49,148 bases of DNA, taken from assembly GCA_018883245.1 (NCBI GenBank), contig VEQL01000021.1:1-49148 (forward strand), in the 5' to 3' direction. The translations under genes and the position numbers were made by a program. The notes below the pieces were generated by a model that saw only the letters and a program-made list of their open reading frames with translations, was not told the origin of the DNA and did not search any database. The stretch comes from Chthoniobacterales bacterium (GTDB taxonomy: Bacteria; Verrucomicrobiota; Verrucomicrobiia; Chthoniobacterales; JACTMZ01). This document shows positions 46,309-49,148 of this stretch, piece after piece; the stretch's first letter is position 1, and every line of letters starts with the position of its first letter.

Positions 46309-46563
46309 TCAATCTTCAGAGACCTTCACCACGGATTGGCCGGGGCGACGCGCCACATTCACCGAGACGGGCGTGTCGTCGTCATCATCCACCCCGCCGA
46401 TCTGGACCGTGGGTCCGAACGGAACCGTGCGGATGTTCAATCCCGAAGCGTTTTGCGAGACATGCGGCGAGCAACCTGCGCCAGCCACGACGACCATGGC
46501 CGCCGTGGCAGCGAGTATTTTCGGGGTCGGGGTTTTCATTGCTTCGTTCGTGATCGATCTCAT
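46309..46563 (-). CDS. Small lipoprotein of unknown function
   Basis: An 84-aa ORF whose MKTPTPKILAATAAMVVVAGAGC is a signal peptide with a lipobox (residues 9-31 counted from 46563). The mature part is about 55 residues and ends with VNVARRPGQSVVKVSED, with an acidic run DDDDD in the middle. The first ATG at 46563 overlaps the upstream stop (ATGA), while the signal peptide favours ATG 46539. No family is recognised. Confidence 0.6.
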   Translation of the reverse strand: MRSITNEAMKTPTPKILAATAAMVVVAGAGCSPHVSQNASGLNIRTVPFGPTVQIGGVDDDDDTPVSVNVARRPGQSVVKVSED

Positions 46564-48425
46564 GCGGAAGGGACCAACTTAATGTCATCAAGATACAGCA
46601 CGCCGTCGGGTGCCATGAGTTCGAATATGATTTCGATGACACCTTCCGAGGTGAGCTTTTCTTTGTTCAGCTCGCGCTCGTTTTTGAAATCAACCTTGAT
46701 CTGCTTGTTGACGGTTCCCCATGAGGATCCGGCGCTGAAATCAAAGGATTCGTTGCGGGCTTCAGCGATCGCGTTCGCTTTCCTTTCCACGGCCCCGCGT
46801 TCTTTCCGCACAAGGCGGTCCTCGCCCAGTTTTTTGTAGCCGCGCCATGCAATGGTCACTTTTTCGTTCGAAACTTTCGCACCTTTTGCCTGGAAGCTGA
46901 ATGTGTATGTCTTGCCGATCTCTAATTGGATACTCTGGCGGATGATAAAAATGTTGGGCGGGCTTATCCGCCCGCGCTCCTCGGCGGATGCCCGGAAAAG
47001 AGCGTCATCGTCCGGCGCTTGCCCAGTGTTTCCGGACGCCGTCGAGCTCCATATCGGCCGTGGCATCACTTTGTTGGGACATGGTGCGTATCCGAGTTTG
47101 AGCACTTTGGAACCCTCGCGCGGTTCCGCGCTGGCGTCTTCCTGGGATCCCACACAACTCGCGTAGGCGAAAAAATTGCCTTTCATCAGACCGACTTCGA
47201 TGTCCCACTGCGAAGGCAAGAGCCAGACGCCGGGTGTCGGCGCGGTGCCTTTTAGGTCGGCGGGAGTTTCGAACTTCGGCTGCTCCTTCGTTCCTTTATT
47301 GGCAAGCCACATCATGCGGCCGGTGTTCTTTCCCGTGACCAGATCGAATAACCCGTCGCCGTTCAGATCGCCCGCAGCTATTGCGTGGATTCCCGCGCCA
47401 AGAACCAGCGCCTGGTTTTCGTCTTGGGTGAGGCCGCCGCTCTTCGCCAGATACCCGGAAGGTTTGATCGTGTCTCCGAATTTCCACCCTTGCGGCCGCA
47501 AATAAGCGGTGAGACGTCCGCGCCGGTCGGCCACAACCAAATCGAGTTGGCCGTCGCCGTTGGCATCGGCCAAAGCCGGGCGCAGTTGCTCCCGACCTTC
47601 GCCCAGAGCCAAAGGCTGGCGTTTTTCTTCGCTGAACATCGGGGCCAGTGCCGTGCCAGAATTCAGAAAAAGGTGCACATTATTGGCTGAGTAAGAGCCT
47701 TCGCCGACGAGAAGATCGGGCTTCTTGTCGCCGTCCCAGTCATACATCAAAGGCGCAAAGACATTCCCCCACCGGGAATCCGGGTTCTTCGTGAGTTTCA
47801 GATTGGCTTTCGCCAACGATTGTGGTTGAGCAAACAGCGGTGCCTTGGCGCTCCCGGTATTGGGGATGAGAAATATCTCGCCGTTGTAGGTGCCGGCGAC
47901 CAAGTCGAGTTTCCCGGCGTTGCCGTTGTCCGCGAGGGCAACAGACACACCTTTGCGCCTGTTGACCCAAAGATAACCCCAGCGCCCCGCCTCGACTCCC
48001 CCGAATGTGGGAAGCGTCCACGGCGGCTGACCCTCACGAAGCGCGAGGTAGGGCATGGTCAGTTCCCCGAAGGTGAACTTGGGTTCCGTCGCCGTCCCGC
48101 TGTTGAAATAAATGCGGATGTAGCCGACGGGATCCGAGGCAAGGATATCCGGTAAATTGTCCCCATTGAGGTCACCGATGGCGGGAGAAATCGGAAGCGG
48201 CGTGTCGGCTATGTTTCCGCTTTCGTTCAGAACCGGCATTTGCGTGCGAAAACCGGCCAGATTTCCATCCTTGTCAATGCCGCTCCAGAGATTCGGGGAC
48301 TGAAATGACCGCTCGAAACCTCCATTCAGCACGGTCCTCACCGGTGGCGGCGGCGCCGCGGGTTTCTCTGCGTGAACTGTTGACGCAGCAAGGCAGAGCA
48401 ATGCGGCTGTCCGGGGAAAATTCAT
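46560..48425 (-). CDS. Secreted FG-GAP/VCBS repeat protein with a carbohydrate-binding-like C-terminus
   Basis: A 621-aa exported protein (signal peptide MNFPRTAALLCLAASTVHA). FG-GAP/VCBS-type calcium-binding repeats are seen as GDLNGDNLPDILASD (about 85-100), NGNAGKLDLVAGTYNG, YDWDGDKKPDLLVGEG, ADANGDGQLDLVVADR and GDLNGDGLFDLVTGKN, giving a beta-propeller of about five to seven blades. Near residue 33 LNGGFERS looks like the start of a CBM4/9-type jelly roll, and the rest of that fold appears only after the propeller (IGKTYTFSFQAKGAKVSNEK ... IIFELMAPDGVLYLDDIKLV). It heads a set with a lipoprotein and a membrane protein. Confidence 0.78.
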   Translation of the reverse strand: MNFPRTAALLCLAASTVHAEKPAAPPPPVRTVLNGGFERSFQSPNLWSGIDKDGNLAGFRTQMPVLNESGNIADTPLPISPAIGDLNGDNLPDILASDPVGYIRIYFNSGTATEPKFTFGELTMPYLALREGQPPWTLPTFGGVEAGRWGYLWVNRRKGVSVALADNGNAGKLDLVAGTYNGEIFLIPNTGSAKAPLFAQPQSLAKANLKLTKNPDSRWGNVFAPLMYDWDGDKKPDLLVGEGSYSANNVHLFLNSGTALAPMFSEEKRQPLALGEGREQLRPALADANGDGQLDLVVADRRGRLTAYLRPQGWKFGDTIKPSGYLAKSGGLTQDENQALVLGAGIHAIAAGDLNGDGLFDLVTGKNTGRMMWLANKGTKEQPKFETPADLKGTAPTPGVWLLPSQWDIEVGLMKGNFFAYASCVGSQEDASAEPREGSKVLKLGYAPCPNKVMPRPIWSSTASGNTGQAPDDDALFRASAEERGRISPPNIFIIRQSIQLEIGKTYTFSFQAKGAKVSNEKVTIAWRGYKKLGEDRLVRKERGAVERKANAIAEARNESFDFSAGSSWGTVNKQIKVDFKNERELNKEKLTSEGVIEIIFELMAPDGVLYLDDIKLVPSA

Positions 48426-48504: not shown

Positions 48505-48563
48505 TGGTGCGCGATACAGGGTTCGAACCTGTGACCCCTACCGTGTCAAGGTAGCTGTTCTAC
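48505..48563 (-). pseudogene. 3' part of a tRNA-Val(GAC): attachment-site remnant
   Basis: The minus strand carries, from its 3' end, CCA (48507-48505), acceptor 3' strand ATCGCGC plus discriminator A, a normal T-arm, and an intact anticodon arm CTACC-TTGACAC-GGTAG (anticodon GAC, Val), ending in the D-arm side GTAGAACAGCTACC. Further 5' the sequence becomes TTAACAGA, and no acceptor 5' strand (GCGCGAT) or D-stem partner exists, so the tRNA is incomplete. A 59-bp tRNA 3' segment next to an integrase is the usual mark of island insertion. Confidence 0.85.
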
Positions 48564-48579
48564 TCTGTTAAGGCTTGCA

Positions 48580-48599
48580 AAGTGCCAACGAAGTGCCAA
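48580..48599 (+). repeat. Two direct AAGTGCCAA repeats between the tRNA fragment and the integrase
   Basis: AAGTGCCAA occurs at 48580-48588 and again at 48591-48599, spaced 11 bp start to start. Short direct repeats between att core and integrase are typical arm-type binding sites, but here that is inference only. Confidence 0.45.
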
Positions 48600-48611
48600 T
48601 AAATCGCGCTG

Positions 48612-49148
48612 ATGAAGACGAAAACACTCCGCAAAAGCAAAGCCAACGGAAAGCAGGACGAGACGCATCAATGGCCGTTTATCCGTTGGATCGAATCCCG
48701 TCAACGCTGGATGGTCGATGCGCGCACCGCCACCGGGGGCGAGCGCAAATTCTACGCGACCAAAGACGAAGCCGAGGGCGCGGCGATCATCGCCCGCACC
48801 AAGCGGCAGAATGAAGGCGCATCGGCTTTCGACCACGAGGAATTGAGCCGCTACGGATGGACAATTCAGCGCGCGATTAAGTTTGCGCTCGATCACTTGA
48901 AGCGCCAATCGGCGAGCGTGGCCGTGACTGATGCGGTCAAAAGCCTGTTGGAAAGCAAACGCGCGGCGGGGCGGGACGAGAATTATTGCACCCGCCTTTC
49001 GATCAATCTGGGCAAACTCACCGAGGCCTTCCCGGACAAGACCATTGCCAGCATCGGCACTCTCGATCTGGGTGCGTTCCTCACCAAGTTGCCCCTTGCT
49101 CCCGGCACGAAGAACACCGTCCGCTCCGACTGCGCGACCCTCTGGAGC
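48612..49148 (+). CDS. Tyrosine-recombinase-like integrase, N-terminal part (truncated by window edge)
   Basis: A frame open from ATG 48612 to the right edge (179 codons). The N-terminal 60 residues look like a DNA-arm-binding domain (RWIESRQRWMVDARTATGGERKFYATKDEAEGAAIIARTKRQ, a pattern of three beta-strands and a helix), followed by a SAM-like core-binding helix bundle with VTDAVKSLLESKRAAGRDENYCTRLSINLGKLTEAF, and KTIASIGTLDLGAFL. The catalytic R..HxxR..Y part lies beyond the window. It begins about 49 bp from the tRNA-Val fragment, fitting a tRNA-site integrase. Confidence 0.75.
   Translation, partial: MKTKTLRKSKANGKQDETHQWPFIRWIESRQRWMVDARTATGGERKFYATKDEAEGAAIIARTKRQNEGASAFDHEELSRYGWTIQRAIKFALDHLKRQSASVAVTDAVKSLLESKRAAGRDENYCTRLSINLGKLTEAFPDKTIASIGTLDLGAFLTKLPLAPGTKNTVRSDCATLWS

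Follow-up and report, generated by a model that had tools for sequence, protein, structure and literature searches.

The window analysed here, 49,148 nucleotides long, makes up the whole of contig C21 in a draft genome (G000; 84 contigs, 2.9 Mb) of a Chthoniobacterales bacterium, and at its right end part of a tRNA-Val(GAC) gene lies beside the start of an integrase-like reading frame. This arrangement raises the question of whether the contig stops inside an integrative element and, if so, where the other end of that element is to be found. From the evidence assembled below we hold with high confidence that an integrative mobile element has inserted in tRNA-Val(GAC) and that the right end of C21 is one of its ends. 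The type of structure is already well known, being that of an ordinary tRNA-targeted island; the host is a member of the Verrucomicrobiota.

A displaced tRNA 3′ half and an integrase gene cut by the contig end

An intact tRNA-Val(GAC) gene lies elsewhere in the genome, on the minus strand of contig C48 (1600-1674), and the longest exact match between this gene and the window is a 50-bp block, CTACCTTGACACGGTAGGGGTCACAGGTTCGAACCCTGTATCGCGCACCA (Table 1). The block begins with the 5′ strand of the anticodon stem and runs through to the encoded CCA, and identity ends abruptly on both sides; ARAGORN called no tRNA at this site in the window. A first-pass annotation had described a 59-bp copy of the tRNA 3′ half. 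The fragment is real and includes the CCA, but the exact repeat is 50 bp and the remainder is a weak extension: BLASTN carries the match on to 48563 at 97% identity, and beyond 48554 the alignment shows scattered D-arm-like matches with no continuous identity. These last nine positions are probably element DNA adjoining the core. A 46-bp part of the block is present in 52 of the 213 genomes of the order, in a single copy per genome except in G000, which has two, and in G004, where the second copy is a contig-end overlap. Because this sequence, where present, is almost always single-copy in the order, a chance origin of the fragment is excluded. The block is the element/chromosome junction, of the attR type, which fixes the true boundary between chromosome and element in the draft genome and shows the place of the missing DNA.

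The integrase reading frame begins 48 bp past the 59-bp segment and stays open up to the contig end. It contains a start codon, an arm-binding-like N-terminus and a SAM-like region; the catalytic domain is missing, and the catalytic R...HxxR...Y residues are absent from C21. Its relatives match PF00589. The 179 residues alone matched no Pfam, NCBIfam or PHROGs model. Relatives were nevertheless found in 61 of the 213 genomes of the order (G000 counted), the best of them a complete 373-aa protein in G101 with 56-57% identity over 175 residues, a PF00589 domain (E 2e-10) and matches to PHROG integrases (2e-30). Homology to this full-length protein identifies the 179-aa frame as the N-terminal and core-binding region, with the catalytic domain beyond the contig end. 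The C-terminal half is absent from the assembly, as the nine PF00589 hits of the genome all belong to different, longer open reading frames. Thus the annotated tyrosine-recombinase-like integrase, reading away from the fragment, is borne out by homology to the G101 protein, with the corrections that only its N-terminal half is present and that the gap is 48 bp. Since the window stops where the contig stops, the interior of the element and its cargo cannot be read.

Table 1. Features at the right end of the window (window coordinates)
Feature	Position	Strand	Remarks
Flanking chromosomal gene, 621-aa VCBS/FG-GAP-like protein (named by eye)	46560..48425	-	80 bp from fragment CCA
Displaced 3′ half of tRNA-Val(GAC), exact 50-bp direct repeat	48505..48554	-	100% identical to C48:1600-1649 (-)
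CCA	48507-48505	-	
Discriminator A	48508	-	
3′ acceptor strand	48515-48509	-	
T-arm	48532-48516	-	
Anticodon stem	48554-48538	-	loop TTGACAC, 48549-48543
Weak D-arm-like extension completing 59 bp	48555..48563	-	BLASTN extension
Candidate integrase promoter overlapping arm sites	48575..48603	+	TTGCAA, 17 bp, AATAAA; by eye
Putative integrase arm-type site 1, AGTGCCAA	48581..48588	+	GTGCCAA count; same variant at C48 end
Putative integrase arm-type site 2, AGTGCCAA	48592..48599	+	11 bp from site 1
N-terminal 179 aa of tyrosine-recombinase integrase	48612..49148	+	homology to 373-aa relative; cut by contig end

The probable partner end on contig C48

A second copy of the 3′ segment, within a complete tRNA-Val(GAC), had been expected at the other end of the element. 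It exists in the intact C48 gene, and the integrase-type repeats past the 3′ end of that gene match those of the integrase region in the window. The two copies of the 3′ half are on different contigs, in an orientation that is consistent if the right end of C21 joins the left end of C48; no overlap with another contig was found for the final 120 bases of the window or for the initial 400 of C48.

The 7-mer GTGCCAA occurs twice in the whole 49-kb window, both times beside the integrase gene. On C48, four copies fall within 98 bp (1396-1494), 107-204 bp past the CCA of the intact tRNA, and two more are found elsewhere on the contig; among 3000 simulated 220-bp sequences, none had more than two. 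Putative arm sites are therefore seen on both sides of the att core with one motif at both ends, as in lambda-type (heterobivalent) integration systems. As judged from their sequence and placement, the 11-bp-spaced repeats are probably arm-type sites bound by the N-terminal domain of the integrase. As the likely int promoter overlaps them, we propose that the integrase probably represses its own gene, by analogy with KplE1 intS, for which such repression was shown (PMC2951348). In the KplE1/HK620-type module, att overlaps the integrase promoter (PMC2951348); likewise, int here starts beside the att core, with putative arm sites over the promoter region. The arrangement in the window differs in being at the fragment end, and the likeness is one of layout.

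The element end on C48 encodes a small HTH protein that weakly matches a recombination directionality factor (E 0.009) and a protein of 116 aa; the latter has no good homologue in the order and so gave no link to reference elements. Directly past the intact tRNA there is a predicted hairpin followed by a T run, which could end transcription of the tRNA. G+C content gave no island signal, at 0.59-0.60 inside the element and 0.61-0.62 outside.

Given the arm repeats common to both ends and the same layout in two complete relatives (described below), the right end of C21 and the left end of C48 very probably belong to a single element that entered through the anticodon loop. In its circular form this element would have contained a tRNA copy beginning at the anticodon stem and ending at the CCA, and the integrase would have recombined this copy with the chromosomal tRNA, the strands most likely being exchanged within the 7-nt anticodon loop. 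Joining of the chromosomal 5′ half to the 3′ half of the element would have given the intact tRNA now on C48 and displaced the original 3′ half to the other end, where it is seen in the window. In the resulting arrangement the integrase gene starts just inside the fragment end and reads into the element, with putative arm sites between fragment and int and matching sites 107-204 bp inside the other end. On this model the element may be mobile at present.

Two other readings of the paired ends were weighed against this one. The absence of the C-terminal half of the integrase from the assembly might be taken to mean that an old element was deleted and left behind a tRNA fragment and a broken integrase gene, with C48 belonging to a different element of the same specificity. 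We regard this as very unlikely, since no stop codon interrupts the reading frame before the contig ends, both ends have one and the same arm variant, and the two copies of the 50-bp repeat match without exception. It is somewhat less probable still that one of the two contigs belongs to a different strain or species, so that the two ends were never in one cell: the draft is indeed in 84 contigs, with breaks at or inside the element, but the reported contamination is 1.68%, the two contigs agree in G+C and in arm variant, and both the 46560-48425 gene and the nitroreductase gene on C48 have orthologues in congeners.

Complete relatives and known systems

Two complete elements with homologous integrases, together with the C48 tRNA and the common arm repeats, uphold the earlier proposal of an element inserted in a tRNA gene. 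In G008, which is of the same genus, 9.9 kb separate an intact tRNA-Arg(TCT) from a displaced 3′ half, with an integrase gene that begins just inside the fragment and is oriented into the element. The element in G029, of ~15.4 kb, is in a tRNA-Lys gene and has the order and orientation predicted for C21 and C48. In G008 the intact tRNA and the fragment have 22 bp in common around the anticodon, followed by a compensated T-arm change, and both T-arm alleles also occur in congeners; this allele difference beyond the 22-bp core fits strand exchange in the anticodon loop.

The same placement recurs among the best-scoring integrase homologues, seven of eight of which adjoin an antisense tRNA 3′ half (G101, G029, G091, G089, G008, G045 and the window), the tRNA types being Val, Lys, Gly, Arg-TCT and Arg-CCG as assigned by eye. 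In close homologues, 11-bp-spaced repeats stand between the tRNA fragment and the integrase start codon; the eighth locus, in G062, has the repeats and no recognisable tRNA fragment. More distant relatives deviate more often, and several adjoin an intact tRNA instead. These findings bear on the idea that the fragment in the window is a degenerate tRNA pseudogene with an integrase beside it by coincidence. Prokaryotic tRNA gene fragments of other origin do exist, for example in CRISPR arrays (PMC9897764), but close integrase homologues adjoin the 3′ halves of several tRNAs at equal distance and in the same orientation, and we give this explanation hardly any credence.

Each element has a repeat variant of its own, common to its two ends: AGTGCCAA in G000, GGTGCCAA in G008 and GCTGCCA in G029. 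Variants are unmixed between elements except for one GCTGCCA at the tRNA end in G008, and in all three elements, as read from the sequences, the inverted pair on the tRNA side starts ~107-115 bp past the tRNA. Separately, the 3′ flank of tRNA-Val(GAC) in G008 (L076:8248-8400, on G008:C82) has a ATACAGGCTT motif like that of C48 and a TTGTGGCAA pair, and is perhaps the end of another related element at that tRNA.

The integrase subfamily and its end architecture are apparently not yet described; one limited literature search, of a kind that cannot establish novelty, found no description of such tRNA islands in Verrucomicrobiota. We tentatively suggest, while stopping short of calling it probable, that an undescribed Chthoniobacterales integrase subfamily has shifted between many different tRNA targets (Val, Lys, Gly, Arg and others) with a fixed end architecture, namely an 11-bp-spaced arm pair next to int and, at ~107-115 bp beyond the regenerated tRNA, an inverted pair, the arm sequence co-changing at both ends, and that it mobilises satellite-like elements of 10-15 kb. 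If so, these elements would provide a natural series for reading the code between the integrase N-terminal domain and arm DNA. An antisense tRNA 3′ half, 11-bp-spaced TGCCA-type repeats and an integrase start together give a search signature for elements in Verrucomicrobiota.

Both related elements encode a D5/DUF5906-type primase, and that of G008 also has an excisionase-like HTH (HTH_17) gene, RadC, HicAB and a tape-measure-like protein; no recognised capsid or terminase gene was seen among the proteins scanned from these 10-15 kb elements. As far as predicted genes can tell, their content resembles that of phage satellites or reduced prophages. PICI-like satellites are characterised by int, an AlpA-like regulator, a primase, partial phage structural genes and helper dependence; the genes in the related elements that may bear on such a kinship are those for the HTH_17/excisionase-like protein (G008), the primase (both) and the tape-measure-like protein (G008).

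In searches for the rest of the element, a single-protein scan of genome contigs found no relative, nor did scans of viral contigs; an alignment scan found four loci, all in Verrucomicrobiota. Four integrase-bearing relatives are metagenome-assembled genomes of this phylum, G008 among them. In plasmid and phage collections, integrases of at most 33% identity were found among the best matches listed. The nearest phage-collection integrases to the 373-aa relative, among the matches listed, are those of the Akkermansia phages Chambord, Moulinsart and Chantilly, with a low identity of 25-33% over 68-82% of the query.

Among known islands, the closest counterpart is the 3′-fragment class (subsite A) of the Islander collection, which has an intact tDNA, a displaced 3′ fragment, a tyrosine integrase just inside and a crossover region centred on the anticodon; 3760 of 3919 Islander islands leave a 3′ fragment, and those with a 5′ fragment are rare (159/3919) (PMC4383910). 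The intact tDNA and its cognate end fragment are found here as C48:1600-1674 and window 48505-48554, and the tyrosine-family integrase inside the element as an N-terminal half with 56-57% identity to a PF00589 protein. Islander admits islands of 2-200 kb (PMC4383910), and the complete relatives measure ~9.9 and ~15.4 kb. The present case differs in that its ends are on two contigs and that the integrase is beside the fragment and not beside the regenerated tRNA.

Chromosomal flank and other tRNA-Val loci

To the left of the fragment, the 46560-48425 gene has orthologues of 54-63% identity in seven congeners and is therefore not island cargo. No relative has an uninterrupted site joining the C48 tRNA to this gene. 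Congeners have the intact tRNA-Val(GAC) in other gene neighbourhoods, where it adjoins a nitroreductase gene in both orientations, and orthologues of the 46560-48425 gene are never beside tRNA-Val; as gene order around tRNA-Val varies among congeners, relatives do not display a joined empty site. The missing junction and the missing empty site limit the certainty of the single-element link, not that of the boundary itself. The anticodon stem reads CTACC in G000, G004, G007 and G008 and CCTCC in others; the notion that the tRNA 3′ half had been replaced, in comparison with congeners, was dropped, because the CTACC and CCTCC loci are not syntenic.

Several further observations concern tRNA-Val loci. 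On C48, a nitrous-oxide-reductase-like (nos) cluster (L018 (G000:C48):3864-12652; names by eye) lies between tRNA-Val and the nitroreductase gene 14 kb away, and in several congeners the gap between these two is only ~9-160 bp. Contigs C96 and C150 of the congener G004 (end of L071, start of L072) overlap at their ends by 55 bp, precisely at the tRNA-Val(GAC) 3′ half, and G007:C176 (end of L075) also stops there, which suggests unresolved repeats or element-bearing strains.

A second element in G000, of ~7.8 kb, is in tRNA-Val(CAC) (G000:C15:37312-45241; L083:3313-11242). It duplicates the tRNA 5′ half (nt 1-37; by eye, a 44-bp repeat including upstream bases), and its 384-aa integrase gene starts ~55 bp upstream of the intact tRNA 5′ end. 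At tRNA-Val(TAC) (G000:C45:16116-17431; L022), a tyrosine integrase gene likewise starts near the tRNA 5′ end and reads away from it, so that all three tRNA-Val genes found in G000 adjoin an integrase through a full or a displaced copy. Finally, in another genome of the order, a 5′ fragment (nt 1-40) marks the boundary of a ~16.8-kb island in tRNA-Val(GAC) (L082, G018:C1:478115-495056). With its DrmD-like helicase, AriA/OLD-like ATPase and type III restriction-modification pair, this is a defence island of the 5′-fragment type.
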